Shown one piece after another: positions 4,595-40,215 of a DNA stretch of 64,000 bases. Position 1 is the first letter of the stretch. Every line of letters starts with the position of its first letter. A program made the position numbers and the translations under genes. The DNA is taken from the NCBI RefSeq assembly GCF_900095175.1, contig NZ_LT606946.1:188712-252711 (forward strand), given 5' to 3'. The DNA comes from Polynucleobacter necessarius (GTDB lineage Bacteria > Pseudomonadota > Gammaproteobacteria > Burkholderiales > Burkholderiaceae). The notes under the pieces were generated by a model. The model saw only the letters and a list, made by a program, of their open reading frames with translations. It was not told where the DNA came from and searched no databases.

Positions 4595-4774
4595 CCGTTG
4601 CATTGTGCGCCCCGCAGAAAAAAGCCATTGCCTCTGCAAGCCGGTGATGTGCCCGACACCTACGCCGATGTGGCCTGCCTCGTCGAGCAATTTCACTACC
4701 AACCTGCCACTATAGTGGAAGAAGGCATCCAGCGCTTTGTCGCTTGGCATGGCAATGAATTCAAGCTTATTTAA
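4595..4774 (+). pseudogene. C-terminal stub of a UDP-glucuronate 4-epimerase-like SDR
   Basis: Between wzz and the ABC transporter a frame opened by a stop at 4592 reads into about 45 residues that match the tail of UDP-glucuronate/UDP-galacturonate epimerases: PLQAGDVPDTYADV, then a Tyr-x-Pro-Ala-Thr step, EEGIQRFVAWH, and a stop whose TAA overlaps the ATG of the next gene. No Rossmann N-terminus or start codon is present. It is therefore the 3' remnant of a deleted epimerase gene, and the terminal overlap with the transporter suggests the lost gene was once translationally coupled to it. The remaining 4475-4594 shows nothing recognisable. Confidence 0.75.
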
Positions 4775-6549
4775 TGCAACCCAACCAATCCATAACAGCT
4801 CTACTAAAACGCCTCTGGCACCACATCAGCCCACGTCGCCGCGGGCAATTCGGGCTGCTACTAGTGCTGATGCTGCTCGCATCGTTCGCGGAAATTTTTA
4901 GCATCGGAGCTGTGTTGCCGTTTCTTGGAGTATTAACTGCACCTGAGCGCGTATTTAATTACGCCGCAGCGCAGCCCTTCATCCAGGCATTAGGGCTAAA
5001 AGAGCCAGCGCAACTCTTTTTGCCCCTCACGATCATCTTTGGCGCGGCGGCGCTTATCGCAGGTGCAATGCGCTTGTTGTTACTTTGGGCTAGCACGCGA
5101 CTTTCTTACGCCACTGGTGCCGACCTTAGTATCAGCATCTACCGACGCGCCCTTTACCAATCTTATGCAGTGCATTGCGCTCGTAACAGTAGCGAGGTCA
5201 TCAACGGCATTTCAAACAAAACAAATGCCGTTATTGGCATCATCACGATGCTCCTTACGCTTGTCAGTTCGGTCGCCATGCTTATTACCATTCTGCTTGC
5301 CCTCTTGTCTTTGAATCCTGTTGTTACGCTGGCTGCCTTCGGCGGATTTTGGTTGATTTACTTTATCATCATCGGTCTGACCCGAAAGCAACTCTCCAAT
5401 AATGGCGAACGCATCGCTCGCGAATCCACACGTGTTATCAAATCCCTGCAGGAGGGATTGGGGGGTATCAGAGATGTGCTCATAGATGGCAGCCAAGCGA
5501 CATACTGCCAGATTTACCGCAATGCCGATCTTTTCATGCGTAGAGCCCAGGGTAATAATTCATTTATTAGCTCTAGTCCGCGTTATGGCATGGAAGCCTT
5601 GGGTATGCTGCTTATCGTAGCGCTGGCATATTCGCTATCTCAGCAAGCAGATGGCGTCGCCAAGGCAATCCCCATACTCGGTGCATTGGCACTGGGGGCG
5701 CAGCGTTTGTTACCCGTTTTGCAGCAATCATATGGTGCATGGACGAGTATTCGGGGCGGACAAGCCTCCTTAAGGGATGCTCTTGAGCTATTAGACCAAC
5801 CCTTACCCGACTACGCCGACCAGCCAGCTGCACAACCGCTGCCCTTCAAACACAGCATCAGCCTCAAGCAGCTTGCGTTCCGCTACAGCCCGCAAGCGCC
5901 CTATGTTCTAAAGCATCTCAACCTTACCATCGCCAAAGGTAGCCGCGTGGGTTTCATTGGCACCACCGGTAGTGGCAAAAGCACCCTACTCGACATCGTC
6001 ATGGGCCTGCTAGAGCCAACTGATGGCACCTTGGAGATTGATGGCCAAGCTGTAATGCCCGCAAACAAACGCGCCTGGCAAGCCCATATCGCTCATGTGC
6101 CGCAAGCCATATTTCTGGCCGACAGCACCATTGAAGAAAACATTGCCTTTAGCGTGCCCATAGACCAGATCGACCCCCAGCGCGTCCGGCAAGCCGCACA
6201 ACAGGCGCAAATTGCCGACAGCATTGAAAGCTGGCCCAAGCAATACCGAACCTTTGTCGGTGAGCGCGGCATCTGCCTCTCTGGTGGTCAACGCCAGCGC
6301 ATCGGCGTTGCCCGCGCCCTCTACAAGCAAGCCGATGTGATCATTTTTGACGAAGCAACCAGTGCACTAGACAACGAAACTGAACAAGCCGTCATGCAGG
6401 CAATTGAAGGCCTCAGCAAGGATCTCACTGTTCTCATCATTGCCCACCGCCTCACCACGCTGAAAAATTGCACACAGATAGTTGAGCTGGGTGATGGCGG
6501 CATTAAGCGCGCTGGCACTTATCAAGACATCGTGAATCAAACGGCATGA
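4774..6549 (+). CDS. ABC transporter, fused membrane and ATPase domains (PglK/MsbA-like lipid-linked glycan flippase)
   Basis: This 591-residue half-transporter has six predicted helices in residues 20-310 and a C-terminal ATPase domain. Visible ATPase motifs are Walker A GTTGSGKST (about residue 395), signature LSGGQRQR (about 502), Walker B VIIFDEATSALD (about 521) and the switch histidine in IAHRL. Its place in a glycan cluster and its single-chain architecture fit PglK-type flippases, which move undecaprenyl-diphosphate oligosaccharides across the inner membrane. No Wzx-type protein and no Wzm/Wzt pair was found in the window, so this is the best candidate for the export step. Its ATG overlaps the stop of the epimerase stub. 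Confidence 0.85.
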   Translation: MQPNQSITALLKRLWHHISPRRRGQFGLLLVLMLLASFAEIFSIGAVLPFLGVLTAPERVFNYAAAQPFIQALGLKEPAQLFLPLTIIFGAAALIAGAMRLLLLWASTRLSYATGADLSISIYRRALYQSYAVHCARNSSEVINGISNKTNAVIGIITMLLTLVSSVAMLITILLALLSLNPVVTLAAFGGFWLIYFIIIGLTRKQLSNNGERIARESTRVIKSLQEGLGGIRDVLIDGSQATYCQIYRNADLFMRRAQGNNSFISSSPRYGMEALGMLLIVALAYSLSQQADGVAKAIPILGALALGAQRLLPVLQQSYGAWTSIRGGQASLRDALELLDQPLPDYADQPAAQPLPFKHSISLKQLAFRYSPQAPYVLKHLNLTIAKGSRVGFIGTTGSGKSTLLDIVMGLLEPTDGTLEIDGQAVMPANKRAWQAHIAHVPQAIFLADSTIEENIAFSVPIDQIDPQRVRQAAQQAQIADSIESWPKQYRTFVGERGICLSGGQRQRIGVARALYKQADVIIFDEATSALDNETEQAVMQAIEGLSKDLTVLIIAHRLTTLKNCTQIVELGDGGIKRAGTYQDIVNQTA

Positions 6550-6665: not shown

Positions 6666-7421
6666 ATGCGGCTTAAAAATAAAAGTGTAGTGATCACAGG
6701 TGCGGGAGGTCAGTTGGGTACCCGTTTCGCCCAGTCCTTTGCGACTGAGGGTGCCAAGCTTTGGCTTGCTGACATATCCCCAGAGCTGCTTGCGAAAGCG
6801 GCCGGACAAGTTCCCACAGAAAATCTGTTAGGCACCTTGATAATGGACGTGACTCAGCCAAAATCCGTGGAAAGCGCTTTTGCCAAAATACGTGAGCATG
6901 GTCCGTTGGACGTTTTGGTCAACAACGCGGGAATTGGAGTTTTTACGCCGTTTTGGGAGCGCGATTACTACGAATTCATGCAGGTCATGTCGGTCAATGT
7001 GGGCGGCACTTTTCTATGCACCCGCGAGGCCTTACGGTTAATGAAAGACCAGGGTCGGGGCGCTATTATCAATATTGGGTCGATCTATGGGGTGGTCAGT
7101 AGTGATCCAAGTATCTACACCGATTGTGCTCGCATGAACTCAGAGGTCTATAGTGCATCGAAGGCGGCCGTCATTCATATGACTAAATATTTTGCTGTGC
7201 ATGCGGCGCCACTGGGCGTTCGCGTTAATTGCGTCAGTCCGGGCGGTGTCTTCAATAATCAGGGTGAGGATTTTGTTCAGAACTACACGCAGCTCACCCC
7301 TTTTAATCGCATGGCCAAGGATAAGGAAATCTGCGGGGCTGTGATTTTTCTGGCATCCAGTGAGGCCGATTATGTATCAGGGCAGAATATTGTCGTCGAT
7401 GGAGGTTTCACAGCATGGTAG
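6666..7421 (+). CDS. SDR-family NAD(P)-dependent oxidoreductase
   Basis: The 251-residue classical short-chain dehydrogenase shows the cofactor motif TGAGGQLG (residues 11-18), NNAGIG near residue 88, the catalytic serine in INIGSIYG, and YSASK as the YxxxK pair near residue 162. It ends in DGGFTAW. The ATG at 6666 is chosen because the homologous fold starts there; the 14 codons upstream of it are unlike the family. The stop overlaps the start of the FAD-NeuB fusion by 7 bp, implying translational coupling. It probably oxidises or reduces a sugar intermediate of the acidic-sugar module; the substrate is unknown. Base composition here is clearly more GC-rich than downstream of 11 kb. Confidence 0.85.
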   Translation: MRLKNKSVVITGAGGQLGTRFAQSFATEGAKLWLADISPELLAKAAGQVPTENLLGTLIMDVTQPKSVESAFAKIREHGPLDVLVNNAGIGVFTPFWERDYYEFMQVMSVNVGGTFLCTREALRLMKDQGRGAIINIGSIYGVVSSDPSIYTDCARMNSEVYSASKAAVIHMTKYFAVHAAPLGVRVNCVSPGGVFNNQGEDFVQNYTQLTPFNRMAKDKEICGAVIFLASSEADYVSGQNIVVDGGFTAW

Positions 7422-9790
7422 ATCGTTCAGTTTTAATCTTTGGCGCAGGAATGTCGGGACTGGTGACAGCATATGAATTTGCAAAGCGGGGTGTGCCGGT
7501 AAGAGTGCTTGAGCGCTTGCCTGTACCAGGCGGCTTAGCACGTACCCTGCGTTTTGCCGACTATTACATCGATGCTGGCCCGCATCTGTTTCATACCTCT
7601 AGCCCGGAAATTATTGCTTATTGGCAAAGTATTTTTCCCGGAGTGTTTCGCACGCCGGCGCTGTATGGTAAAAACTATATCGATGGAAGGTTCTTTGAAT
7701 ATCCGTTATCCGAAGAAACACTTAGGCAATTCCCAGCTGAGTTATACGACCGAATCATGTCGGAGATGGCCGCAACGGACTCCGATCAGTTGAGCACTGC
7801 GCGCAATTACCGCGACTACATGACTGCGCTGGCGGGCCCCACCTTGCAGAAGATTTTTTACGAAGAATATCCGGAAAAATTATGGGGTATTCCTACTTCA
7901 GAATTGTCTGCTAACTGGGCACCACAGCGCATCGAGATTCGCAAGGAGAAAAAGCCGTTTCATGCGGATCAATGGTCTGCAGTTGCACAAAACGGATGCG
8001 GACAGACAATGGAAATCTTAGCCAACAAAATTATCGAGCTTGGTGGCAGGATCGACTACAACGTTGAGGTATTGAGTGTTGAGCTGGAAGGCGACGTAAT
8101 AGATCGGGTTCGCACCAGTGAGGGCACTATACAACTGGGCCGTAACGACCTTGTGGTATCAACGCTCCCTATAACCGTGAATTCACGTTTTCTTGATGTA
8201 CCCTGCAACCTTGGGTATCGCAGTGTCAAGTTGGTAGCCATTGCGACCACCGGGCCAGACCCATTTCCTAAAGATGCAGACTGGTTGTACTTCAAGGACC
8301 GGGACATCATCTTCCACCGTGCCGGTTTGCAAACGCGCTTTTCCGACATTGGCATTCCCAGGGGTTGGTCCATCCTGTGTTGTGAAATTGCCTACACGGC
8401 GGGAGACTCCGTTTCTCAAATGGATGAGGCGCAACTGCGTGAGCGTGTTATCGGAGACTTGGAGCGCATGGGCTTTGTCAATCGCGCTGAAATCGTCAAG
8501 GTTCACCACATGGATCTGGGGCCTCTTTACCCCAGCTATCGCGTGGGTTTTGAAACTGAGCTGCAACGCGTGCGCGGCGAACTCGAAAAAGTCGGTAACT
8601 TTTATTTTACCGGCACCTTAGCTGATTTTTCCTATGCCGATTTCCAGATTCTGTGCGCCAAGGCCATTGATCTGGTCGACATGATTCAGGACCCCGGCTC
8701 GGCTTTTAATAGTGTTCAGCGCGTTACGCGTAGGGCGAAAAAGTTCAAAGATGTTGTTCAAATCGGAAAGAACTTAATTGGACATCAGTATCCACCTTAC
8801 ATCATTGGCGAAATTGGGTTAAACCACAATGGTAGCGTTGAGATGGCCAAGCAACTAATCGACGTGTGTGTGGAAAGTGGTTGTAATGCGGCTAAATTCC
8901 AGACTTTTAGCACTGAACGCATATCCGCCAAAGTGTTGGATGCACGTTATAACGAGGATATTATGGACCTCGAAGAAAACCTGCATCAGCTGTTTAACCG
9001 GCTGATTTTTTCATGGGAGGAACTCAAGGACATTTTCACCTATGCACACTCACGCAACATCGATGTATTCTCCACGCCCTTTGACGTTGAGTCAGTCGAG
9101 ATGCTAGACAAGTTGGACGTACCCGCCTACAAGATAGCATCGATGGACTTGGTCAACCTACCTCTGATCCGCGCTGTGGCCATGAAAATGAAGCCCATGT
9201 TTATTTCGACCGGCATGTCCACGCTGGGGGACATTGAGGAGGCTGTGAACACTGTGCTAGAGGCTGGCAACCCTAACCTTATCTTGCTGCACTGCGTGTC
9301 CAGCTACCCGGCTTCGGCTGCCGAAACCAATTTGCGCATGATTCCGCGCTTGACTGAATGTTTCCAGGTTGTGTCCGGTTTTTCGGATCACTTTCCCGAG
9401 AGTTTTCTAGTCCCGCCTGCGATTGCCCTAGGTGGTCGGGTGATTGAAAAACATGTAACACTGGACCGTTCATTGAAAGGGCCTGATCATATTTTTTCAC
9501 TTGAACCGCTAGAGTTGAAATCAATGGTGGAACAGGCACAAGCAACCTTCACCGCGCTAGGTAACGGCATCAAGGCAATTTCAGCCAGCGAGTACCGCAC
9601 GGTTCAGCGTTTACGGCGTACTGTATTTGCTCGAGTCGCCATTCCTGCAGGGACCACCATCACACGGGAAATGTTGATAATCAAGTCACCTGGTATTGGC
9701 ATTCTTCCCAAATACATTGACCTGATTGTGGGTCGTCAGGCGCGCACACATATCAATGTAGATCATCCGATCACTTGGAGCGCTATTTGA
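7415..9790 (+). CDS. Fusion of FAD/NAD(P) oxidoreductase (amine-oxidase/UGM-like) with NeuB-type sialic acid synthase
   Basis: This single 791-residue frame carries two enzymes. Residues 1-440 form an FAD-binding protein of the protoporphyrinogen-oxidase/UDP-galactopyranose-mutase-like superfamily: GAGMSG at 10-15, ERLPVPGGLARTLR, and the usual DAGPHLFHTSSPE. Residues from about 455 form a complete NeuB/LegI/PseI-type synthase with GEIGLNHNG, KIASMD, the SDH motif, IEKHVTLDRSLKGPDH and a C-terminal SAF/antifreeze-like domain (about 734-791). NeuB enzymes condense an aldose with phosphoenolpyruvate to give a nonulosonic acid. The FAD domain presumably acts on the same sugar, but no reaction is known for this pair. 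The gene overlaps its upstream SDR and touches its downstream neighbour (TGATG), forming a tight operon. Confidence 0.85.
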   Translation: MVDRSVLIFGAGMSGLVTAYEFAKRGVPVRVLERLPVPGGLARTLRFADYYIDAGPHLFHTSSPEIIAYWQSIFPGVFRTPALYGKNYIDGRFFEYPLSEETLRQFPAELYDRIMSEMAATDSDQLSTARNYRDYMTALAGPTLQKIFYEEYPEKLWGIPTSELSANWAPQRIEIRKEKKPFHADQWSAVAQNGCGQTMEILANKIIELGGRIDYNVEVLSVELEGDVIDRVRTSEGTIQLGRNDLVVSTLPITVNSRFLDVPCNLGYRSVKLVAIATTGPDPFPKDADWLYFKDRDIIFHRAGLQTRFSDIGIPRGWSILCCEIAYTAGDSVSQMDEAQLRERVIGDLERMGFVNRAEIVKVHHMDLGPLYPSYRVGFETELQRVRGELEKVGNFYFTGTLADFSYADFQILCAKAIDLVDMIQDPGSAFNSVQRVTRRAKKFKDVVQIGKNLIGHQYPPYIIGEIGLNHNGSVEMAKQLIDVCVESGCNAAKFQTFSTERISAKVLDARYNEDIMDLEENLHQLFNRLIFSWEELKDIFTYAHSRNIDVFSTPFDVESVEMLDKLDVPAYKIASMDLVNLPLIRAVAMKMKPMFISTGMSTLGDIEEAVNTVLEAGNPNLILLHCVSSYPASAAETNLRMIPRLTECFQVVSGFSDHFPESFLVPPAIALGGRVIEKHVTLDRSLKGPDHIFSLEPLELKSMVEQAQATFTALGNGIKAISASEYRTVQRLRRTVFARVAIPAGTTITREMLIIKSPGIGILPKYIDLIVGRQARTHINVDHPITWSAI

Positions 9791-10911
9791 TGGCGACGCT
9801 AGACGAAGAAATCGAGCAAATTGTCCTTGAAGTGAATAGACTGGCTAGCCTAGAGAGCAAACTCACTGGCTTTTGTATTGGAAATACGCGCAAGATCAAC
9901 GACACTGGACTTTATTTTTCTCCGTTGCGTAGAACTAGTAGGTTGATTGCCGGTAGCGCTATTGTGTACGACGTTAGCCAAGCGGTGGCAGTGGCACGAG
10001 CGGTGGACGGCATGGTGGATTATGTGCTGGTTGACACAGAAAAAAAGATCAGCACCGAATTATACGGCGCTGATAATGTGGGTAACGTCGAACGCGCAGT
10101 ACGCGAAACAGTCAAGCATTCGCGGGTGTTGGCTTATAAGGGAAATGATCTAACAGTCGACTCAATCGAAAATTTGATCGTGCAGATACTATCAACCCAC
10201 CCACGTGGGTTGAGTGGTAAAAGGGCAGCCATTATTGGAGCTGGTAACGTAGGCTCCAAATTGGCGCTAAAACTGGTCGAACGTGGGATGGACGTATCCC
10301 TGATCCGGCGCGATAGAGTTAAACTCGCGGCTATTGTGACGGCGCTGAACATCATTAAGCCAGCAGAAACAATAGCCAAGGTCACCGCTGGCGAGGACAA
10401 TCTGTCGATCGCCCAGGGAGCTGACTTGTTGGTGGGGCTGACGCAAGGTATACCGGTTATTACAATTGCCATGATTGATGCGCTGGCACACGGTGCCGTG
10501 CTGTTGGACGGCGGCAAAGGTTGCTGTGAGCAGGAAGCTATTCGGCGTGCGCAGGAGAAGGACATTCCTGTCTATCGCGCCGATATCCGGCCGGGCTTTG
10601 AAGGACACATGGGTATGGTGTTGGAAACTGAGCGCATTGTTGAATACGCTTTGGGTCGCACTGAGTTTGATGCTGTGCCTGTCGTGTCCGGCGGCTTGCT
10701 GGCACGTCCCAACGAAGTTGTGGTTGACAGCATAGCTGATCCTCATGCCGTCTTTGGTATTGCTAATGGCTTAGGCGATTTTGTTCGAGTTCTTGACAAC
10801 AACCAAGCGCATCGTCTGCAGGTGGTACACGATTACATCCTCAGAAAGAGGGGGGCTAAAAATGTCAGAAATCATACGGGAATATTTGAGCGCCACTCAA
10901 CTAGTCAGTAA
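9790..10911 (+). CDS. Rossmann-fold NAD(P)-binding protein, unknown substrate
   Basis: The 373-residue protein has a central nucleotide-binding motif LSGKRAAIIGAGNVGSK (about residue 138), followed by an arginine-rich strand end. This resembles shikimate-dehydrogenase or alanine-dehydrogenase type Rossmann domains. The C-terminal half contains a LLDGGKGCCEQEAI segment. I do not recognise the family. The start is ATG 9790, which shares bases with the stop of the fusion gene (TGATG). Its fixed position between the synthase and the CMP-sugar synthetase suggests a role in the acidic sugar's synthesis. The last 50 bp overlap a small ORF. Confidence 0.7.
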   Translation: MATLDEEIEQIVLEVNRLASLESKLTGFCIGNTRKINDTGLYFSPLRRTSRLIAGSAIVYDVSQAVAVARAVDGMVDYVLVDTEKKISTELYGADNVGNVERAVRETVKHSRVLAYKGNDLTVDSIENLIVQILSTHPRGLSGKRAAIIGAGNVGSKLALKLVERGMDVSLIRRDRVKLAAIVTALNIIKPAETIAKVTAGEDNLSIAQGADLLVGLTQGIPVITIAMIDALAHGAVLLDGGKGCCEQEAIRRAQEKDIPVYRADIRPGFEGHMGMVLETERIVEYALGRTEFDAVPVVSGGLLARPNEVVVDSIADPHAVFGIANGLGDFVRVLDNNQAHRLQVVHDYILRKRGAKNVRNHTGIFERHSTSQ

Positions 10912-11086
10912 GGACCAGGTAAGATACTTTAGTCTAGTGGTTGATCGTGTGAGCACCCGTTGTGAAATGGACGAGAAAATTGAAGCACGCTACACAAATA
11001 TAAGTCAAAATATAACCGTCCTAAGCAGAAGCAAAAAGTATCAACAAAATGGTAAGCAAACACTAGCTGTTGCACTTCGAAAGTGA
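10862..11086 (+). CDS. Small hypothetical protein (possible truncated gene)
   Basis: This 74-residue ORF starts at ATG 10862 behind a strong purine-rich stretch (AGAAAGAGGGGG) and overlaps the end of the preceding gene. It begins MSEIIREYLSA and becomes lysine-rich and low in structure toward the end. No family is recognised. It lies exactly where base composition drops from GC-rich to AT-rich, so it may be the intact 5' end of a longer gene cut off by recombination. Confidence 0.4.
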   Translation: MSEIIREYLSATQLVSKDQVRYFSLVVDRVSTRCEMDEKIEARYTNISQNITVLSRSKKYQQNGKQTLAVALRK

Positions 11087-11105
11087 ATCCGCGAAAAGAA
11101 AAGTA

Positions 11106-11798
11106 ATGGTTAAGATCGTTGTAGTAATTCCTGCAAGAAGTGGAAGTAAATCACTTCCAAATAAAAACATATTGCCTCTACACGGCAAGCCACTCTTGTG
11201 CTACTCGGTTGCCTATGCATTGGGCTGTAAAGCCGTTGATAAGATTGTAGTTTCAACGGACTCTGAACATATAGCAAGCATCGCTAAAGAGTGCGGGGCA
11301 GAGACTCCCTTTTTAAGGCCAGGTGAGTATTCACAAGATAGCACTAGAGATTATCCGGTTATGAAGCATGCGCTTGAGTTCTTTGAAGATATTGATGAAA
11401 TTTATGATATATACGTCTTGCTAAGACCTACTTCACCAATACGACCAAGCGGGCTAATTGAAAGGACAATAAAAATTTTAGAAAAAAATCCATCTGCCAG
11501 TTCGGTTAGAAGTGTTGCAAAAATCAAAGAGCACCCATATAGAGCTTGGTACAAAGAAAATGATGGAAGTATGAGAGGATTTGTCGAGGATGTACATGAA
11601 GCTTATAACATACCCAGACAAGAGCTGCCTGATGTATATTTCCAAACCGGCGATATAGAAGCAATCAGACGAGTAACGTTATTGGATGGAAGTATTTCAG
11701 GTAGTAATGTTTATCCGTTAATAATTAAGCATGACGAGATGGTAGACATAGATCACATAAATGACTTTAAAAATGCAGAAGAAAAACTAAAATCATGA
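11106..11798 (+). CDS. neuA: CMP-sialic acid synthetase-type cytidylyltransferase
   Basis: The 230-residue protein starts with the diagnostic IPARSGSKSLPNKN loop and HGKPLL, then has the LRPTSPIRP and YFQTGDIEAIRR segments of NeuA/PseF/LegF enzymes, which activate nonulosonic acids with CTP. The ATG at 11106 precedes the first strand; the upstream frame to 11070 has no family similarity. Its position after a NeuB-type domain agrees with making a CMP-nonulosonate. Which acid it activates (Neu5Ac, Leg, Pse or another) is not evident. The stop overlaps the next ATG (ATGA). The coding sequence is AT-rich, unlike the synthase upstream. Confidence 0.85.
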   Translation: MVKIVVVIPARSGSKSLPNKNILPLHGKPLLCYSVAYALGCKAVDKIVVSTDSEHIASIAKECGAETPFLRPGEYSQDSTRDYPVMKHALEFFEDIDEIYDIYVLLRPTSPIRPSGLIERTIKILEKNPSASSVRSVAKIKEHPYRAWYKENDGSMRGFVEDVHEAYNIPRQELPDVYFQTGDIEAIRRVTLLDGSISGSNVYPLIIKHDEMVDIDHINDFKNAEEKLKS

Positions 11799-12748
11799 AA
11801 TTTCTAGTCTGTGGCTTGGGTTCAATTGGTTTTAGGCACTTAAGAAATTTAAAAGCTCTAGGATATACGGATGTTATTGTGTATAGCAGTGGTAAAAGTG
11901 TAATGCCAGGAGTTAAAGAGGAAATAGAAAAGTTTGAAATATACAATTCCTTGCACGAGGCATTGAAACAAAAACCTGATGTATGCATGATTACAAATCC
12001 AACTTCATTACATGTCTCTGTTGCGATGATGGCTGCAAATGCAGGTTGTCATTTATATATTGAAAAACCATTATCGAATACTTTAGAAAAATTAGATCAA
12101 TTACAAAAAATAGTAAATAATAAAAAACTTACAACATTTATCACGTATCAGTTTAGATTTCATCCACATATCAAGTTATTGAAAAACATATTTGCGGATA
12201 AGAAAGGCGAATATGGGGAGGCGCTATATGTCACAACCGAATGGTCTGAATATTTACCGGACTGGCATCCATGGGAAGACTATAAGCAGAGTTATTCTGC
12301 TAGAAGAGATTTGGGGGGAGGTGTTTTGCTGACTCAAATACATCCTATGAATTACTTGAGCTATATTTTCGGAGATATTGAAAAAGTTCAAATAAATAAA
12401 ATTGCGACAAAAATTTTAGGTATTGAAGTAGATGATGTTGCTGATTTGATGATAAATTTTAAAACTGGTATGGGTGGGCACGTTCATATTGATTTTTTAC
12501 AAAAACCTAGAGTGCATGCGATGAAGGTTGTTACTTCGAAAGGTAGATTTGAATGGGATTACCATGAAAATACACTATTCTTTGTTAATAATGACGGCAA
12601 AGAAAATATCTTTAAGAACGATAACTTTGATAGGAATGATATGTTTGTCGAGATGTTGAAAGATTTTATTAACTGTGTGAATTTAAATCAAGAGACTAAA
12701 TTTAATTTAGATGAAGCTATAAACGAACTAGAATTACTAATTTCGTGA
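11795..12748 (+). CDS. Gfo/Idh/MocA-family oxidoreductase
   Basis: The 317-residue protein has the N-terminal Rossmann motif CGLGSIGFRHL and the family's EKPLS motif (about residue 89), in which the lysine is catalytic, followed by a C-terminal domain with GGGVLLTQIHPMNY. Such enzymes oxidise or reduce sugars or sugar nucleotides with NAD(P). In nonulosonate clusters of this type they often follow NeuA, probably modifying the acidic sugar, but this is inference. It is translationally coupled to neuA by a 4-bp overlap. It is strongly AT-rich. After it comes an 830-bp decayed region. Confidence 0.8.
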   Translation: MKFLVCGLGSIGFRHLRNLKALGYTDVIVYSSGKSVMPGVKEEIEKFEIYNSLHEALKQKPDVCMITNPTSLHVSVAMMAANAGCHLYIEKPLSNTLEKLDQLQKIVNNKKLTTFITYQFRFHPHIKLLKNIFADKKGEYGEALYVTTEWSEYLPDWHPWEDYKQSYSARRDLGGGVLLTQIHPMNYLSYIFGDIEKVQINKIATKILGIEVDDVADLMINFKTGMGGHVHIDFLQKPRVHAMKVVTSKGRFEWDYHENTLFFVNNDGKENIFKNDNFDRNDMFVEMLKDFINCVNLNQETKFNLDEAINELELLIS

Positions 12749-12850
12749 CAGTTGATAGTATCCTCATATACCTATCGGCCGTAAATTTTGTGTCATCGGG
12801 TAATTGGTAGAAAGATAGATAGAGAAGATAGCTTTCATTTAAAGGGGTTC

Positions 12851-12955
12851 ATGCATTATCAATTGCGTTATTTAATTACTACTGCAAATGTGCGCACTTG
12901 GGAATATGACAGCACAGTTATTTTCTTGGGTGAATGTTGTTGTTTCTATGGCTGA
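12851..12955 (+). pseudogene. Decayed N-terminus of a LIC12162-family transferase
   Basis: In the 835-bp gap after the oxidoreductase gene, an ATG at 12851 opens 34 codons including LITTANVRTW and VIFLGECCCFY. These align with the start of the intact LIC12162-family protein at 26184 (LVTTSDERSW and LLFLGEWCRLY). The frame then meets a stop, and downstream frames are full of stops. The rest of the gap (to 13583) is AT-rich, with only stray minus-strand ORFs that I do not believe. This looks like a dead copy of the same transferase family. Confidence 0.6.
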
Positions 12956-13583
12956 AGATATTTTTAGCCGGGAGGGATGCCATTGTGCAGCACCTTATTG
13001 ATCGGGGTAATTTAAGATGGACGCTGAGGAATAGGTGTTTGAAGATAAATTTTTCCAGAGCTGCGTGACGTAGGTAACCGTTATCACCCAATACGTGTGG
13101 ATAATTCAATATTATGTGCATGAGCTTAAAGAAAATCTTCAAGAAAAAAGAATTTTTATAGATTTAGGTCGGTTGGGTGGAGCGGCTCCGGCATAGAGTC
13201 AAACATAAAGACGTGCATCTGAAAGGAGATATCATGGTGACAGACTAGATGATAGAGCTAAAAGAATGCTTGGCGCTCTATAAGTCGAAAAGAATGCATC
13301 AATCGCTGAGCTAGCACACGCCAAATTAGAGACCCGCCAGATTAGGTTTGGCTTACTGTGAGTGTACAAGGATTGTTGACGAATACAGTGGGTAAGAAAA
13401 ATGCAGTCAGAAATTGAAACAAAAAAAGAATCAGAATGCCAGTTCAGCACTGTTCCTCTGTATGAGAAAGGTTGCCCTCTCTTTAAGTTATGCATTATGT
13501 ATTGTCTGAGAGACACACTATATTCGTCAAGCTAGGCGCTGTAATTAAAACTATAACTCGCAAATATTATTGTAGGTGGGGTG

Positions 13584-13784
13584 ATGACTAAATTTATTCT
13601 GTACTTTGTTCTTGGGGTGGTGTATTTCGGCTTACTTTCACCGATTTCGATATGCCTCAGAATATTGTTGGGGCAAGATTATTTAAATATAAAAATAAAC
13701 GCCTTAGAAGATAGTTATTGGATCAAAAAAACGTCAACAACTGTGGATGCGTCTGCTTTTTACTCGCAATCAATTTCAAAGTGA
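13584..13784 (+). CDS. Small SxtJ-like membrane protein (short)
   Basis: This 66-residue protein has one strong hydrophobic helix (residues 4-30) followed by ICLRIL, a polar stretch and DSYWIKK. That ending resembles the C-terminal half of SxtJ-family proteins, which are repeatedly found beside carbamoyltransferases. Usual family members are about twice as long with two or more helices, so this copy may be truncated at its N-terminus. A GTG at 13581 precedes the ATG at 13584, and AGGTGGGG upstream can serve as ribosome binding site. It lies 73 bp before the carbamoyltransferase gene. Confidence 0.5.
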   Translation: MTKFILYFVLGVVYFGLLSPISICLRILLGQDYLNIKINALEDSYWIKKTSTTVDASAFYSQSISK

Positions 13785-13857
13785 GTGATAAAGATTTATG
13801 TTCTGGACAGACTTGATTGAGTGCCAGTTATTTTAACTAATTTATTTGAGTTGCTTT

Positions 13858-15693
13858 ATGAAAATTCTTGGAATATCTGCGTTTTACCACGATTCTGCAG
13901 CGGCATTAGTTATTGATGGAAGTATTGTTGCTGCGGCTCAAGAGGAACGCTTTACCCGTAAAAAACACGATCTTGGGTATCCAAAAAATTCGATAGAGTA
14001 TTGCTTAAATTTTGCAGAACTTAAGGCCAGTGATATTGATTATGTCGTTTTTTATGACAAGCCTCTCGCAAAGTTTGATAGGTTGCTGAAAACCTATTTT
14101 GCATTCGCACCTAAAGGGTTTACTTCTTTTAGGGAGGCGATTCCTGTCTGGTTGAAAGATAAGATATTTCATAAAAGACAGATTATTAAAGAGTTTTCTT
14201 TAATGGATGGAGATATAAATTGGTCGCAAAAATTGATTTTTTCCGAACACCACTTAAGTCATGCAGCAAGTGCATTTTATCCATCACCGTTTCAGAGGGC
14301 AGCGGTTCTTACTATGGATGGAGTTGGAGAGTGGACAACAACATCATTGGCGATAGGTAATGGTAGAGATCTGAAAGTACTTCGCGAAATACATTTCCCG
14401 CATTCAATTGGCCTTCTGTATTCAGCGTTTACATACTACATCGGATTTAAGGTCAATTCGGGAGAATATAAAGTAATGGGGTTGGCACCTTACGGTGAGC
14501 CACGTTATGTGGATCTAATTAAAACGCATTTGATTGATATCAAAGAGGATGGCTCGTTTCGTTTGAATATGGCCTATTTTGATTATTGCACAGGGTTGAG
14601 GATGACTAATGATCGTTTCCATGATTTATTTGGTGCGCCACCACGTTTTGCCGATGTGCCGTTGACTCAACGCGATATGGATCTAGCGGCTAGTGTTCAA
14701 GTAGTGACAGAGGAGATTGTACTAAAGCTGGCTCGAAATATTGCCAAAGAGACTGGGGAGCGCAATTTATGTCTTGCAGGGGGAGTGGCGCTGAATTGTG
14801 TTGCCAATGGAAAACTTCTCCGTGAAAATATTTTTGACAACATTTGGATGCAGCCCGCAGCAGGGGATGCAGGAGGCGCTCTAGGAGCAGCATTGGCGGG
14901 CTACCATCTGTTTTCTGGAAAATCTCGATCAGTTGAGGCTGAGGGAGATGCAATGAAAGGAAGTTATCTTGGTCCTGATTATAGTCAGAAAGAGATCGAA
15001 AAAAGATTGACAGATGCAGGCGCTAAATTTGAAACCCTTGATGATAGAGCTTTTATTGAATTTTGCGCATGTGCACTAGATGAAGGTAAGGCTATTGGTT
15101 GGCATCAGGGCAGAATGGAGTTTGGTCCGCGTGCGTTAGGTGCGCGCTCGATTATTGGGGATGCGCGTTCACCAACTATGCAGAAGATACTTAACCTGAA
15201 GGTTAAGTATCGTGAATCTTTTAGACCATTTGCCCCTTCAGTTTTGCGTGAAGATGTTTCGAGTTGGTTCGATTTAGATAGTGATAGCCCCTATATGTTA
15301 CTAGTGGCCGATGTAAAAGCTGAGAAGCGAATAGTAATGTCAGATTCTGAAAAAATGCTTTTTGGTATTGACAAGCTTAACATCAAGCGCTCATCGATTC
15401 CTGCGGTGACGCATGTTGATTATTCCGCTAGAGTGCAGACTGTCCATAAGAATACCAATCCACGTTACTATTCACTTATCGCTCGCTTTAAAGAGTTGAC
15501 GGGTTGTCCTGTAATCGTTAATACATCATTTAATGTTCGGGGGGAGCCAATAGTTAACACTCCTGAAGATGCTTTTAGGTGTTTTATGGGCACTGGTATT
15601 GAGATATTGGCGATAGGTAATTGCATTTTAAAGAAAGAAACTCAGGATCAATCTCTGGTTAAAAGTTATGAGAATAATTTTGAGCTTGATTGA
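13858..15693 (+). CDS. Carbamoyltransferase (NodU/CmcH family)
   Basis: The 611-residue protein has the N-terminal Kae1-like domain (GISAFYHDSAAALV; HHLSHAASAFYPSPF with the metal-binding histidines) and a C-terminal YrdC-like domain with EFGPRALGARSI. NodU/CmcH enzymes transfer a carbamoyl group from carbamoyl phosphate, via carbamoyl-adenylate, to a hydroxyl of a sugar or antibiotic. In this locus it probably decorates the polysaccharide. The ATG at 13858 is preferred to the in-frame TTG at 13846 because the fold begins with MKILGISAFYH. Four tandem GATT units (15688-15703) span its stop codon. Confidence 0.9.
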   Translation: MKILGISAFYHDSAAALVIDGSIVAAAQEERFTRKKHDLGYPKNSIEYCLNFAELKASDIDYVVFYDKPLAKFDRLLKTYFAFAPKGFTSFREAIPVWLKDKIFHKRQIIKEFSLMDGDINWSQKLIFSEHHLSHAASAFYPSPFQRAAVLTMDGVGEWTTTSLAIGNGRDLKVLREIHFPHSIGLLYSAFTYYIGFKVNSGEYKVMGLAPYGEPRYVDLIKTHLIDIKEDGSFRLNMAYFDYCTGLRMTNDRFHDLFGAPPRFADVPLTQRDMDLAASVQVVTEEIVLKLARNIAKETGERNLCLAGGVALNCVANGKLLRENIFDNIWMQPAAGDAGGALGAALAGYHLFSGKSRSVEAEGDAMKGSYLGPDYSQKEIEKRLTDAGAKFETLDDRAFIEFCACALDEGKAIGWHQGRMEFGPRALGARSIIGDARSPTMQKILNLKVKYRESFRPFAPSVLREDVSSWFDLDSDSPYMLLVADVKAEKRIVMSDSEKMLFGIDKLNIKRSSIPAVTHVDYSARVQTVHKNTNPRYYSLIARFKELTGCPVIVNTSFNVRGEPIVNTPEDAFRCFMGTGIEILAIGNCILKKETQDQSLVKSYENNFELD

Positions 15694-17728: not shown

Positions 17729-18772
17729 ATGAAGCTTTCAATTTGTATTCCAACCTATAATCGCGCCAATCTTTTGGTGAATTGTTTAAATTCCATAATT
17801 AGCTGTAAACGAAATTCTGATCTAAACTTTCAAGTGTGTATTTCAGATAATCATTCAACAGATGGTACGGAGGATGTTGTACGGGCAGCACAGTTAATTA
17901 TTGATATTAAATATCAAAGAAACAGTAGCAATCTCGGGATCCCAAGAAATTTTCTTAACGTTGTTTCAATGGCAGAAGGGGAGTTTGTTTGGTTGCTTGG
18001 TGACGATGATATGTTAATGCCGTATGCTATTGAAAAATTGTATAGATTAATTGATGGGCATCCCGCCGTTGATTACTTCTTTGTCAATTCTTTTAATATA
18101 TCTACGGAATTTATAAAAGGTTTTCCTGCGCCCTTTGACATTGTAAATTTGCCTAGTAATATGGACCCATATTCTAAATTTACGTTCGATGGTGAAAGAC
18201 CTTTTTTACAGTTAATTGACCCTAAAATTACCTTTGACTTTCTTGGTATGATGTCATATTCCGTATTTAGAAGGGATTCATGGATTCGGAACACGAATGT
18301 CCTTGATGCAAAAGCGCTTCTAGATAAACGAACATTTTCTCATTTTGATAACACATTTCCTCATATAAAAATCTTTGCAAAAGCCTTTTCAAAATCTCAG
18401 GCTTACTTCAATGCAGAACCCTTAAGTGTCTGCGTCTCTGGGGCGCGGGAATGGTCTGATCTAAATCCGCTTGTTATGAGTGTGCGACTAATAGATGCGT
18501 TAAAGGAGTATCGAAATAATGGTCTGCCATATTGGAAATATGTGTATTGTAAAAACGATGCACTAAAATACTTTATACCAGATTTTATTAAAATATTGCT
18601 GTACAAAGAAAAGTCTGGCTATTCTTACGTTAGCCCGGTCAAATTGTTGCTTGAGTCATTTTTGTACCCTAATTTTTATCTATCATTTTTGTACGATATT
18701 GGAAGGCGCGTACGTAGAGTATTTGCCCGTATGGTGAAAATAATTGTTTCTAGGAGATCGCAGTATGAGTAA
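17729..18772 (+). CDS. Glycosyltransferase family 2
   Basis: The 347-residue protein opens with LSICIPTYNRANLL, followed by SDNHSTDGT and LGDDDM as the DxD-like nucleotide-sugar metal site near residue 95, giving a GT-A fold of family 2. It lacks long helices except near the C-terminus (about residues 300-335), so it is probably a peripheral membrane enzyme adding one sugar to the repeat unit. Its end overlaps the following methyltransferase start (18765) by 8 bp. Donor and acceptor are unknown. Confidence 0.85.
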   Translation: MKLSICIPTYNRANLLVNCLNSIISCKRNSDLNFQVCISDNHSTDGTEDVVRAAQLIIDIKYQRNSSNLGIPRNFLNVVSMAEGEFVWLLGDDDMLMPYAIEKLYRLIDGHPAVDYFFVNSFNISTEFIKGFPAPFDIVNLPSNMDPYSKFTFDGERPFLQLIDPKITFDFLGMMSYSVFRRDSWIRNTNVLDAKALLDKRTFSHFDNTFPHIKIFAKAFSKSQAYFNAEPLSVCVSGAREWSDLNPLVMSVRLIDALKEYRNNGLPYWKYVYCKNDALKYFIPDFIKILLYKEKSGYSYVSPVKLLLESFLYPNFYLSFLYDIGRRVRRVFARMVKIIVSRRSQYE

Positions 18773-20012
18773 TAGTAACTTTCATGAAATTAACTCATGC
18801 GAGGTGTGTGGCAACGACAAGCTTGAATCTGTTTTGGATTTAGGTCTTCACCCTATGTGTGATGATCTTGTAAGTGTTGATGATAACCGGGTCTGTATCG
18901 AATATCCTATTGAGATCTTATTCTGTAAAAAATGTAATACTGCACATCAGCGTTTTCAGGTTCCCAAAGAAAATTTGTTTCCTGCTACTTACCATTACCG
19001 TTCGCGATTTACAGCCGATGTGTTAAAGGGTATGAAGGGCTTGGTTGATTCCTGTGCTCAACGCTTTGGTAGCCTGGCAGGGAAAAAGGTGCTTGATATT
19101 GGATGTAACGACGGCAGTTTGTTAGATTTTTTCCATGCGCAAGAAGCGTTGACTATTGGTATCGAACCAACGGACGCGTATCTTGATGCTAAGGTAAAAG
19201 GCCATATTACCTATAATAACTTTCTATCGGAAAAGCTTACAGATTCCATTGTTGAGGCGCACGGTAAACTAGACTTTATAACCTTTACGAATGTGTTTGC
19301 TCATATTGAAGATCTGCAAGAGGTTCTTAGATCACTAAAAAAGTTAATATCTGATAACACTGTCATTGTCATCGAGAATCATTATCTGGGCTCGGTGCTT
19401 GATGGCAACCAGTTTGACACTTTCTATCACGAGCATCCCAGAACGTATAGTTATGGTTCGTTTGTGCAGATGGCATCTACCTTGGGAACTAAGTTAGCAG
19501 GTGTTGAATTTCCTTCAAGATATGGCGGCAACATCCGTGTCTTTCTGGGGAGCTCTTTGAATGCCGACTACACCGATACTGTCAATTTGACAGCTCTGGC
19601 ACTTCGTGAAGGTAATTTTTTCAACGATTTCGATACGTTAAGAAAAAATATTAAGAGTTGGCTGGGGGTGAAGCATCAATTTCTTCAGGAACAATTCAAA
19701 AAATATGGCAAGTTACGTGCCAAAGCGTTTCCTGGCCGCGCCGCTATTTTAATTAGACTTCTTGGTATGGACGAGAATTTAATATCTGCTGTATACGAAA
19801 AACCTGGCTCGCTCAAAGTGGGGCATTATTTGCCAGGTACGCGAATACCTATTTGCTCGGATGATGATTTGTTTGCTCTACCAGATCAGACTCTGCCATT
19901 ACTCAATCTGGCATGGCATATCCCTAAGGAAATTCGCCATTATTTGATGGAGCACAAATATACTGGTAAGCTTGTTGATATCTTAAGTGCAGAGGACTTT
20001 GCGACAAAGTGA
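18765..20012 (+). CDS. Sugar C-methyltransferase (zinc-binding N-terminus, Methyltransf_13/14 type)
   Basis: The 415-residue protein has an N-terminal zinc site (CEVCGN then FCKKCN), a central SAM domain with VLDIGCNDGSLLDFF (about residue 110), and a C-terminal domain typical of NDP-4-keto-sugar C-methyltransferases of the TylC3/NovU type (GKLRAKAFPGR, VGHYLPGTRIP). It therefore probably methylates carbon 3 of the 4-keto sugar made by the nearby CDP-glucose 4,6-dehydratase. ATG 18765 is chosen because AGGAG lies about 10 bases upstream; the frame extends further but overlaps the GT2 gene. Confidence 0.8.
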   Translation: MSNSNFHEINSCEVCGNDKLESVLDLGLHPMCDDLVSVDDNRVCIEYPIEILFCKKCNTAHQRFQVPKENLFPATYHYRSRFTADVLKGMKGLVDSCAQRFGSLAGKKVLDIGCNDGSLLDFFHAQEALTIGIEPTDAYLDAKVKGHITYNNFLSEKLTDSIVEAHGKLDFITFTNVFAHIEDLQEVLRSLKKLISDNTVIVIENHYLGSVLDGNQFDTFYHEHPRTYSYGSFVQMASTLGTKLAGVEFPSRYGGNIRVFLGSSLNADYTDTVNLTALALREGNFFNDFDTLRKNIKSWLGVKHQFLQEQFKKYGKLRAKAFPGRAAILIRLLGMDENLISAVYEKPGSLKVGHYLPGTRIPICSDDDLFALPDQTLPLLNLAWHIPKEIRHYLMEHKYTGKLVDILSAEDFATK

Positions 20013-26183: not shown

Positions 26184-28007
26184 ATGCTTAATTTTAATAA
26201 TATGCCAATGATCCAAAGGCACTTGGTTACCACATCTGATGAGCGGTCATGGAAAACAGATCAACCATTACTATTTCTCGGTGAGTGGTGTCGGCTTTAT
26301 GATAGAGCACAACATTGGTCTGGCCTTGATGCGATCGTCGCTCCCCCATTTAATTTTTCTATAGATCAGAAAAAAATACACATTGAATACGTGCAAGAGA
26401 TGTCACGCATTTTGTTGGGGGAATTAACTCTTGCTCTCAATAGGATGCATGAAGTGAACCATTCTCAGCGTTATTGGGATATTCTTCTGGGCTATTGGCT
26501 TCAGCGATACGTAGCGGTAAGTTTTAATAGATATTTCACCATTAAGAATGTTATTGATCAGTATAAGATAAAAAGTACTACGGTCTTTGCGCTGAAAGAT
26601 TACACATTGGCTACAGATGACTCAATTAACTTTTTGTACGCTTGCAATTCCCCACTTTGGAATCATATTTTTTATAAAGATGTATTGCAACATCTTGGTG
26701 GGTGTGAGTTGGAATATTTATCTTTAGTTGATGGCGAGATAGACTGTTTTAGATTTCATACTAATGGAGTTCAAGCGAACCAGAAATCTTTCTATAAGCA
26801 AGCAAGGCATGTCATTTCTCGTTTACTTTCATCTTTTAAAAGCAACAAGCACGCTTATATTTTTAATACCTATTTGCCAAGATGGCAAGAAGCCAAGCTT
26901 AATTTTTCTTTTGGGCAGTGCCCTCAATTATGGGAAAGCCCACCCATACAGTTCACCCCGTTAAATAAAGATCTACGATATCTTTTTAGAATTAACACAG
27001 ATGGATATACTGGATTTGAAAATTTCGTACGACGTCAATTGCCGAAAACTATACCAATTTGTTATTTAGAGGGATATTCAAAGCTATGCAATCAGGCTGA
27101 TTCCTTACCCTGGCCTACTAAGCCAAAGTTCATTTTTACTTCAACTAGTTTCGATAATGATGAGATATTTAAAGCCTGGACTGCTAAAAAAACGGAACAG
27201 AAAATACCTTATTATATTGGTCAGCATGGAAATCAATATGGGACTCATATATATATTGGGAATGAAAAGTGGCCTTTGCGTCAATCAGCAGATAATTTTC
27301 TAACCTGGGGGTGGCAATATGATAAAACTAAAGATATCCCAGCCTTTATTTTTAAAACCGCAGGTAAGAAAAAAAGAAATAGATCATTGAATGGAGGGCT
27401 GCTACTAATTGAGGTGTATCAACAGCATATGTGCGATCCATTTGATACTTATTATGAGCATGGGGTGTATTACAAAGAGCAGTTTGAGTTTGTTAATGCG
27501 TTACCTGCAGAAATTAAGAGAATGCTTACTGTTCGTCTGCATAACAGTTGGCATTTGACCACTTGGTCCGACGGTAGGCGTTGGGCTGATTTTGACCCTT
27601 CAATTCATATAGATTCTGGAATATTGCCAGTAGAGAAGTTGACCGCTCAAAGCCGTTTAGTTGTCCACTCGTACGACTCTACTGGCATATTGGAAACTTT
27701 GTCTTTGAATATCCCAACCCTATGCTTTTGGCATGGGGGACTTGATCATTTATTGCCTGTGGCAAAACCCTATTATGAACTTTTGAGAGGTGTTGGAATA
27801 ATTGCCGATACTCCTAAGCAGGCCGCTGAGTTTGTTGCCTTAAATTGGGGTGATATTGATAAATGGTGGGCTAGTGAAGAGGTCCAGCGTGTGCGTCAAA
27901 TATTTTGTAATCAGTATGCAAGAAGTGAAAATGAACCTGTAACTACTCTGAAGGCCATTCTCTGTAGGGCTAGCAATAATTTTACAGGACAAATTAAAAA
28001 CGCCTGA
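26184..28007 (+). CDS. LIC12162-family putative transferase
   Basis: The 607-residue protein matches the LIC12162 family (TIGR04331-type), first described in Leptospira surface-carbohydrate loci: an N-terminal LVTTSDERSW, LLFLGEWCRLY, then NHSQRYWDILLG, and a C-terminal half with YYIGQHGNQYG and HSYDSTGILETLSLNIPT, which looks like a GT-B nucleotide-sugar site. It is presumed to be a cytoplasmic glycosyltransferase, possibly for a nonulosonic acid, but its reaction is not established. Starts at 26184, 26202 or 26208 are all possible and none has a clear ribosome binding site. An IS30 element ends 49 bp upstream, so its original promoter may be lost. Confidence 0.75.
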   Translation: MLNFNNMPMIQRHLVTTSDERSWKTDQPLLFLGEWCRLYDRAQHWSGLDAIVAPPFNFSIDQKKIHIEYVQEMSRILLGELTLALNRMHEVNHSQRYWDILLGYWLQRYVAVSFNRYFTIKNVIDQYKIKSTTVFALKDYTLATDDSINFLYACNSPLWNHIFYKDVLQHLGGCELEYLSLVDGEIDCFRFHTNGVQANQKSFYKQARHVISRLLSSFKSNKHAYIFNTYLPRWQEAKLNFSFGQCPQLWESPPIQFTPLNKDLRYLFRINTDGYTGFENFVRRQLPKTIPICYLEGYSKLCNQADSLPWPTKPKFIFTSTSFDNDEIFKAWTAKKTEQKIPYYIGQHGNQYGTHIYIGNEKWPLRQSADNFLTWGWQYDKTKDIPAFIFKTAGKKKRNRSLNGGLLLIEVYQQHMCDPFDTYYEHGVYYKEQFEFVNALPAEIKRMLTVRLHNSWHLTTWSDGRRWADFDPSIHIDSGILPVEKLTAQSRLVVHSYDSTGILETLSLNIPTLCFWHGGLDHLLPVAKPYYELLRGVGIIADTPKQAAEFVALNWGDIDKWWASEEVQRVRQIFCNQYARSENEPVTTLKAILCRASNNFTGQIKNA

Positions 28008-28969: not shown

Positions 28970-30331
28970 TTGCATAAAATAATACGGCTTAATTTTTTTG
29001 AGAAACTTACTGAGCGATTTCGAAGCGCTGCTTTGCCTTATAAATTTGGATTTGTGCATTGTCATTCATATCTAAATGATCGGGAAATGGTCCAGATTAA
29101 GATGATGCTGGAGACTAAGAATAAAAGTGAAAAACAGAGTGTAATACTAGAATTTGAAGATCAGTTTTCAAAACTGGTTGGGCGGGGGTCTTCTTCAAGT
29201 TTTGCTTCAGGTCGAATGGCCTTTTATGCATTAATGGAATGTCTCAATATAACTAAGGGGGATGAGGTTATATTGACTGCATTTACTTGCTCTGTAATGG
29301 TCAATGCAATAATGAAGCGAGGTGCTACTCCAGTATTTTCTGATGTTGATAGCAAAACCTTTGGATCAAGTTCTCTTGCCATTCAAAAAGTAATAACTAG
29401 AAAAACAAAGTTAATTGTTGCGCAACACTCATTTGGAATTCCGTGCGACATTGAACCTATCATCCAACTTGCTAAAGAGCATGGTATTTATGTTGTTGAA
29501 GACTGTGCACTTTCACTTAATTCATCTATAAACGGAGTTAAAGTCGGTAACTGGGGTGATGCAGCAATTTTTTCTTTTGATCACAGTAAGCCCCTAAATA
29601 CAATAATCGGCGGAATACTATATACGCGAGATACTGAAATTCATGAGAAGGTTAATCATATATCAAGTATGTCTCCTTCACTTTCTTTTGAGCATCAAAC
29701 AAATCTCTATAACCAAATGATATTTGAGAAAAGACATTACATGCCCAATAGATACCCACGTGCGGAAATATTTTCTAAATTGCGAAGCATTTGGGCGAGC
29801 ATTTGGACGGGTAACCAAAACATTTTTTTTGATGAAAATAATAATAAACCTTTATCTAATAATGAAAGTTATCCATACCCTGCTAAGATGCCTGCTTTTT
29901 TGGCATTGCTAGGTACGTTTGAATTAAATCGATGGGATAAGAAGGAAAGCTTTAGAAAAAAATTACTCGCAAGTATCATTGGAATAATTAAAAAAAATGA
30001 ATATTGCTCATATTTACCTGAGGTTTACAGTGATACTACGAGAGATATTGTACCGCTGCGTTTTGTATTATCAGGAGACGAATCTCATGAGATATCGCAA
30101 AAAATCAAAAAATACATAGATGTAAACTGGGTATGGTTTCGGCAACCAATTGTTGGTGCAACAGATGGATTAGAAAATATTGGGTATGTAAGTGGTTCCT
30201 GCGAGGTTTCTGAAAAGATCTGTTCAACTATCATCAATTTCCCGTGTAATATAAATGAGGGCTATGAGCAATTGTTATTGAATTGCATCGACAACTCTTT
30301 TAATAATCAAATGGCCAATTTTTCTAATTAA
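28970..30331 (+). CDS. DegT/DnrJ/EryC1-family PLP-dependent sugar aminotransferase
   Basis: The 453-residue protein contains FASGRMAFYALM, the aspartate strand VVEDCALSLN, and FDHSKPLN with the PLP lysine (about residue 209), so it can form the Schiff base. It is longer than typical family members (about 380), with extra sequence around residues 245-300. The start is TTG 28970 behind GGAG with 9-base spacing; no ATG is available. It probably transfers an amino group to a keto sugar. A 24-bp piece of its own coding sequence (29195-29218) occurs almost exactly at 28915-28938 upstream. Confidence 0.75.
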   Translation: MHKIIRLNFFEKLTERFRSAALPYKFGFVHCHSYLNDREMVQIKMMLETKNKSEKQSVILEFEDQFSKLVGRGSSSSFASGRMAFYALMECLNITKGDEVILTAFTCSVMVNAIMKRGATPVFSDVDSKTFGSSSLAIQKVITRKTKLIVAQHSFGIPCDIEPIIQLAKEHGIYVVEDCALSLNSSINGVKVGNWGDAAIFSFDHSKPLNTIIGGILYTRDTEIHEKVNHISSMSPSLSFEHQTNLYNQMIFEKRHYMPNRYPRAEIFSKLRSIWASIWTGNQNIFFDENNNKPLSNNESYPYPAKMPAFLALLGTFELNRWDKKESFRKKLLASIIGIIKKNEYCSYLPEVYSDTTRDIVPLRFVLSGDESHEISQKIKKYIDVNWVWFRQPIVGATDGLENIGYVSGSCEVSEKICSTIINFPCNINEGYEQLLLNCIDNSFNNQMANFSN

Positions 30332-40108: not shown

Positions 40109-40215
40109 GCCATACACCATAGGCATAGACACCACCAACTTGCGCGCCGGTGGTGGTGTTAAGCATCAGGTTGGGGTGATGCAACGACGAAAAAAAGGAA
40201 TTATTGATGTTTGAA
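40095..40215 (+). pseudogene. N-terminal stub of a GT4 glycosyltransferase
   Basis: From ATG 40095 (inside the galE tail) 39 codons read IGIDTTNLRAGGGVKHQV before a stop in the start of the next gene. This matches the N-terminus of GT4 enzymes such as the one at 35361 (IGIDASRNRSGGAVAH). The rest of the gene is gone, replaced at about 40180 by the fnlA module, so it marks a recombination joint. Confidence 0.65.

Follow-up and report, generated by a model that had tools for sequence, protein, structure and literature searches.

The well-known routes by which bacteria make Neu5Ac, legionaminic and pseudaminic acid begin with release of the aldose by a hydrolase, or a hydrolysing epimerase, dedicated to this step; the NeuB-family domain condenses an aldose with PEP. 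Compared with the sialic and pseudaminic acid synthases (N. meningitidis NeuB/SiaC, 1xuu and 2wqp; C. jejuni PseI, 8h2c), the fusion protein described here has an added N-terminal flavin domain, Ser or Gly in place of Arg314 and an Arg in the loop that follows strand 2, and its own genome is without NeuC and PseG. Compared with UGM (K. pneumoniae 2bi7, D. radiodurans 3hdq, A. fumigatus 3ukk), its flavin domain shows ca. 20% identity, leaves the curated models unmet, has Tyr for the uracil-contact Asn270 and is joined to a synthase. The NeuB-phosphatase fusion of Leptospira interrogans likewise combines NeuB with a second pathway enzyme; as given in the excerpt of PMC3438082, the phosphatase is C-terminal, whereas the flavin domain of the present fusion is N-terminal. 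The sfmABCDE genes of Shewanella oneidensis (flagellin modification; five genes) comprise, in the excerpt of PMC3765264, a NeuB-domain protein and a predicted 3-oxoacyl-ACP reductase, and no NeuC-type gene is named there; they differ in that the NeuB-domain protein has 290 aa, a TPP enzyme, a methyltransferase and an ATP-grasp protein accompany it, and the excerpt names no flavin fusion. The literature search (titles and abstract openings) gave no description of a fusion such as the present one; its relatives bear database names such as 'sialic acid synthase SpsE/protoporphyrinogen oxidase'.

The window, i.e. the whole stretch of DNA analysed (64,000 nt; Polynucleobacter necessarius, GCF_900095175.1, NZ_LT606946.1, positions 188712–252711, forward strand; genome of 1 contig, 1,907,709 bases, completeness 99.99%), harbours a polysaccharide locus. 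All genes of the segment in question lie on the + strand. An SDR dehydrogenase/reductase (6666..7421, ATG at 6666; ORF and profile matches) overlaps the start of the fusion (7415..9790) by 7 bases; the fusion overlaps the gene of an undescribed Rossmann protein (9790..10911, 373 aa; 308 protein matches, model pLDDT 89.2) by 1 base; a NeuA/PseF-like CMP-sugar-acid cytidylyltransferase follows (11070..11798; PF02348, 83.9 bits; TIGR03584, 144.1 bits, below the cut-off of 205.7), the frame of which opens with TTG, a later start being likely; it overlaps by 4 bases a Gfo/Idh/MocA oxidoreductase (11795..12748), for which the nearest model is UDP-GlcNAc 3-dehydrogenase (86.9 of 450 bits). Upstream, an ABC transporter of PglK/MsbA-like type (4774..6549, +; family profile matches), with a homologue upstream of the fusion in locus L005 (664 bits), is a possible export flippase for the fusion locus.

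Several other genes of the window were recorded beside this segment. Between the Gfo/Idh gene and the carbamoyltransferase region, ca. 0.8 kb (12749–13580) holds only short ORFs (44–94 aa, both strands). A NodU/CmcH-type carbamoyltransferase at 13846–15693, preceded by a small hydrophobic ORF (13581–13784, by eye), may possibly serve O-carbamoylation of the polysaccharide. At 26184–28007 a transferase of TIGR04331 (LIC12162 family; above cut-off; L005 homologue, 607 bits) is a candidate transferase for the unusual acid. A WbuX-type sugar amidotransferase adjoining a HisH homologue was found at 36524–38277, both exceeding the cut-off; such pairs occur in acetamidino-sugar loci.

The frame 7415–9790 comprises 791 codons with no internal stop (ORF; Pfam; alignment of 140 fusions; AF2 model, pLDDT 85.4). 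Residues 1–427 (7415..8695, +) form the UGM-fold flavin domain and residues 444–791 (8744..9787, +) the NeuB-SAF synthase domain; Pfam placed Amino_oxidase at 13–400, NeuB at 481–720 (E 4.2e-80; PF03102, 269.1 bits) and SAF at 735–790 (PF08666, 39.7 bits), the last two above cut-off. The unbroken FAD/NeuB-SAF frame of the initial annotation was thus confirmed in its coordinates, domains and overlaps, and 139 further fusions were aligned to it. These rule out the assembly error for which the initial annotation had allowed. Chance and artefact were likewise rejected: in a search of 5.8 billion proteins with the fusion, 7996 candidates were scored and 405 of them matched at E ≤ 1e-3; of the best 120 matches, 116 reach at least 770 aa. 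The four shorter ones (P0040, P0044, P0045 and P0054 of P0001–P0120) were omitted from the alignment, which contains the 116 proteins, the fusions of 23 loci and that of the window; some of the proteins are probably the locus genes themselves (e.g., P0010 and L003), so that the 140 fusions are not all independent.

The loci were collected by scanning a species-genome collection with the alignment A1 of the Rossmann partner and two peptide patterns; 192 stretches were obtained and 27 confirmed, a list that is not exhaustive, since it comes from a two-pattern scan. The record titles of the contigs name Betaproteobacteria, Burkholderiales, Gammaproteobacteria, Deltaproteobacteria, Zetaproteobacteria, Nitrospiraceae, Omnitrophota, Elusimicrobia, Magnetococcales, Pelagibacteraceae, SAR86, Parcubacteria, Pacebacteria, a Nitrososphaerales archaeon (MAG), Prochlorococcus and others. 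Of these 27 loci, 23 yielded a fusion call; in 26 of 28 genomes (the own genome and the other 27) a NeuB match lies within an open frame of at least 791 aa, 24 of these being aligned fusions and two (G022, G026) being assigned by length alone; G017 has contig-cut NeuB pieces and G023 no NeuB match in an open frame of at least 791 aa. The fusion is a subfamily spread under many phylum names and is not restricted to the host organism. In the tree of synthase domains, 23 of 24 fusions cluster (SH-aLRT 92, not starred), L029 standing outside on a long branch; on removal of L029 and SOLO_L024 the 23 fusion synthase domains form one group (support 69). SOLO_L019, a contig-cut fusion piece with Gly at 314, was left out of the trees, which are compatible with the fusions having arisen once. 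When the flavin domain was used by itself as query, 33 proteins matched; many of them retain NeuB, and many lie on short contigs. Among them are flavin-only proteins such as P0247 (517 aa, on a 12.5-kb contig) and P0252 (445 aa), which may be split-gene versions, and the distant P0262–P0265 (23–25% identity).

Fold comparison assigned the UGM fold to the flavin domain, and the residues equivalent to those of UGM are H57, H60, N87, Y152, W157, R172, R302, Y372, Y407 and D409 (positions counted along the profile alignment of fusion and UGM; six control UGMs matched the profile, and the alignments of four were examined). Equivalents of Klebsiella UGM N84, Y155, R174, R280, Y314 and Y349 are identical in 140/140 fusions, the profile alignment at R280 being a weak, separate segment, where eukaryotic UGMs align unbroken; that of W160 is kept in 139/140 and that of H60 in 136/140. 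According to Table 3 of PMC3624792, in the part available, R174 and R280 are the diphosphate arginines and N84 and Y349 are sugar contacts, N270 contacts uracil, R343 the FAD pyrophosphate and Y185 the diphosphate. The last three are changed: the N270 position carries Tyr in 139/140 fusions, the R343 position Thr, Ala, Ser, Gly or Cys (Arg in 0/140) and the Y185 position Phe in 140/140. The curated UGM models were not reached (PF03275, 21.8 of 26.3 bits; TIGR00031, 47.8 of 303.75 bits). The UGM-like character of the FAD half noted in the initial annotation is borne out by the fold and by retention of most diphosphate and sugar residues, and by its sequence the domain looks built for gripping nucleotide sugars.

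In the synthase half, the equivalents of NeuB E25, Q55, K129, Y186, S213, H215 and E234 (PEP/metal and catalytic residues) are present in 140/140 fusions. The position of Arg314 of N. meningitidis NeuB is occupied by Ser (84), Gly (54), Ala (1) or Pro (1) and by Arg in none of the 140; in the host it is Ser758 (bases 9686–9688). Conversely, the loop following the second barrel strand carries Arg502 (bases 8918–8920) in 140/140 and Ser504 in 137/140 fusions. Control NeuBs have the reverse pattern (Arg314 in 30/30, loop Arg in 0/30); they are the 30 best-scoring NeuB loci, a non-random sample (112 of 274 genomes with a match; L066 and L069 nearly identical). The control pattern also holds for the unfused NeuBs read in the 28-genome set (13/13), of which 11 are neighbours of NeuC. 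In PMC6795526, as far as the excerpt goes, Arg314 of NmeNeuB positions the N-acetyl group of ManNAc and R314A is inactive; of two further active-site residues named in the same excerpt, N74 falls in a loop without safe alignment and F288 counts opposite Arg732 of the fusion. Loss of Arg314 together with presence of Arg502 suggests that the aldose substrate is not ManNAc-like at C2. The unusual aldose proposed in the initial annotation gains from both features, each constant in 140/140; the new product proposed with it is still something that we infer.

The loop Arg is not unique to the fusions, since it was also aligned in six SAF-less NeuB-cytidylyltransferases. These proteins of ca. 590 aa, likewise bifunctional, are encoded by the gene that comes next downstream of the Rossmann gene in six loci (L011:11108-12868, with Pfam matches determined for this locus only; L009:8275-10032; L014:11044-12840; L016:5742-7514; L017:11031-12776; L018:11048-12835); in their active-site columns Asp replaces Thr110 and Gln replaces Asn184.

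The own genome, searched as a whole, gave a single NeuB match, the fusion. No hydrolysing NeuC/LegG was found in the complete own genome; the sole Epimerase_2 match (PF02350; 42799–43995, within the window) is nearest to the non-hydrolysing WecB (TIGR00236, 200.1 bits, slightly below the cut-off of 210.15) and scores 62.7 bits with the NeuC model TIGR03568 (cut-off 235.9). In the same genome, PseG gave 0 matches, N-acylglucosamine 2-epimerase (PF07221) none and LegB none above cut-off (best 113.3 of 475 bits). The absence of NeuC/LegG/PseG that the initial annotation had noted for the window thus extends to the complete genome. Within the window, the proteins of 40204–41250 (FnlA-like) and 46947–48932 gave PseB matches below cut-off, and there are two DegT-type aminotransferases (28970–30331 and 31135–32271).

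In the set of 28 genomes, NeuC was above cut-off in 13, and in 13/13 of these an unfused NeuB lies 128–1778 nt away (between family matches); 11 of these NeuBs were read, all having Arg314 (G014 and G025 were left out). The nearest distance from a fusion to NeuC on one contig is 3133 nt (G008). Eleven of the 15 NeuC-less genomes have no unfused NeuB at E ≤ 1e-20, save the SAF-less kind in G007 and G009; the remaining four (G013, G015, G019, G027) have an unfused NeuB despite the lack of NeuC. PseG exceeded the cut-off in 3/28 genomes and matched more weakly in another 10. Apart from the own genome, all 27 are drafts of unstated completeness, most of them bearing MAG in the title, so that absences in them are soft; draft gaps weaken the NeuC and NeuB absences but not the 13 NeuC-NeuB adjacencies. 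On this evidence the fusion is no genomic companion of the enzymes that normally release the aldose.

The order SDR, fusion, Rossmann protein, neuA, Gfo/Idh, taken as a unit in the initial annotation, did not hold: all five gene types are contiguous in 1/27 loci (L015, in a different order), and in L021 all five are dispersed over ca. 9 kb, the cytidylyltransferase there being KdsB-like. Fusion and Rossmann protein make up the conserved core, often with a cytidylyltransferase. The Rossmann gene directly adjoins the fusion in 20/27 loci (its position in L004 was taken from the peptide-pattern locus scan); an SDR separates the two in L027, and in L022 and L026 the fusion lies some kb from the Rossmann gene on the opposite strand. 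A cytidylyltransferase is present in 19/27 loci in three forms (NeuA-like 9, KdsB-like 6, SAF-less NeuB-cytidylyltransferase 6), two forms occurring together in two loci. Other neighbours among the 27 loci are SDR (9), Gfo/Idh (3), aldo-keto reductase (5) and methyltransferase (4); because contig ends truncate many of the loci, the neighbour counts are lower bounds. The SDR and Gfo/Idh genes look accessory. L005 (titled Gammaproteobacteria, isolate MC-03) has a longer stretch in common with the window, including the ABC transporter, the TIGR04331-type transferase and the genes of 17729–18772 and 18744–20012.

Five loci titled Magnetococcales or Ca. Magnetaquicoccus (L019, L022, L024, L026, L028) have a protein of ca. 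700 aa near the Rossmann gene, which is glycosyltransferase-like (PF13524) in both loci scanned for it (L024, L026); the fusion of these five loci is cut, lies on the opposite strand or is located elsewhere.

The Rossmann protein gave generic NAD-binding Pfam matches only, and its fold matches were tied and partial; Lys85, Lys86, Lys117 and Asp120 are invariant in the 20 sequences of A1. From the NAD-binding fold and these residues it is most likely a reductase or dehydrogenase of the aldose or the acid. Among 398 genomes of the host's taxonomic family a real match to it was found in the own genome only (E 4e-241), the other 20 being weak and partial (E 2.9e-5 or worse); so sporadic an occurrence within the family suggests that the module was gained horizontally.

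These data are best explained by taking the fusion for a bifunctional ulosonic-acid synthase that belongs to a widespread, hitherto undescribed subfamily. Its product is probably an acidic sugar of the cell surface, reached without the enzymes that usually prepare the substrate. We put somewhat less than an even chance on the UGM-type half opening an NDP-sugar and passing the aldose to the synthase half, in place of NeuC/LegG/PseG. UGM chemistry proceeds through a flavin-N5 adduct and ring opening (PMC7662398, in the part available), and a UGM-like opening of an NDP-sugar would be the chemistry of the flavin half. The flavin domain would bind the NDP-sugar, N5 of the reduced flavin would attack C1 with displacement of the nucleotide, the ring would open to the flavin-iminium as in UGM, and an open-chain or easily opened furanose aldose would be released instead of, or before, re-formation of the nucleotide sugar. 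The NeuB domain, judged by its family and its checked catalytic residues, would then join the aldehyde and PEP to a 3-deoxy-ulosonic acid, which the neighbouring NeuA-like enzyme may convert into a CMP-sugar; the SDR and Gfo/Idh proteins may tailor the sugar in the host locus. The end product would probably be a 3-deoxy-ulosonic acid, CMP-activated and lacking the customary N-acetyl group. Taken at its most specific, as a non-redox, flavin-covalent NDP-sugar opener whose iminium is hydrolysed to the aldehyde and which leads to an acid without a C5 N-acetyl group, the proposal is rather doubtful.

The retained diphosphate arginines and sugar-contact residues would also suit a true mutase, acting on an NDP-pyranose to give the NDP-furanose or on a CMP-ulosonate, with NeuB attached for co-expression and the aldose coming from another, unrecognised hydrolase or from a free or phosphorylated hexose; to our knowledge, the characterised nucleotide-sugar enzymes of the UGM fold are mutases. 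At E ≤ 1e-20 a separate UGM of GLF type was not matched in the own genome, which fits opener and mutase alike, but a mutase leaves the constant NeuB fusion and the absence of NeuC/PseG from the own genome unexplained, and we consider it unlikely. The constancy of Arg502 (140/140) and Ser504 (137/140) has also been weighed as Arg502-x-Ser504 acting like the KANRSS loop of Kdo8P synthase, so that the NeuB domain would take an anionic aldose (sugar phosphate or uronic acid) and the flavin domain would serve another step of the pathway by redox or ring chemistry. In that loop, presumably, sit Arg58 and Asn57 of the synthase. In N. meningitidis Kdo8P synthase these two residues partner an inhibitor phosphate (PMC6650799, in the excerpt available). 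The loop profile of the fusions was set on the NRSS loop of the own KdsA, the control NeuB profile only further along, but this alignment is weak (probability 1.9%, E 0.026, single-sequence template), residues 501–521 are modelled at pLDDT <50 and none of the five genes was recognised as encoding a phosphatase; such a substrate appears improbable.

An ordinary synthesis of Neu5Ac, legionaminic or pseudaminic acid from the usual substrate, with a supplier enzyme missed by the models, would be in line with the nearest equivalogs (NnaB, TIGR03569, 321.5 bits; PseI, TIGR03586, 304.7 bits) and with Ser629, which replaces Asn184 in PseI and many control NeuBs as well. It is nevertheless very unlikely, as both scores are below the cut-offs (399.65 and 340.25, respectively), the arginine required for NmeNeuB activity is missing, and the complete genome lacks NeuC, PseG, PF07221 and LegB above cut-off. 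If the preferred reading of the flavin half as an NDP-sugar opener is true, the domain would be a flavin-covalent, non-redox substitute for NeuC/LegG/PseG. The lack of the N-acetyl-reading arginine throughout the family, and of the releasing enzyme in the host genome, points to an acid of the cell surface and to enzyme chemistry that current annotation conceals.
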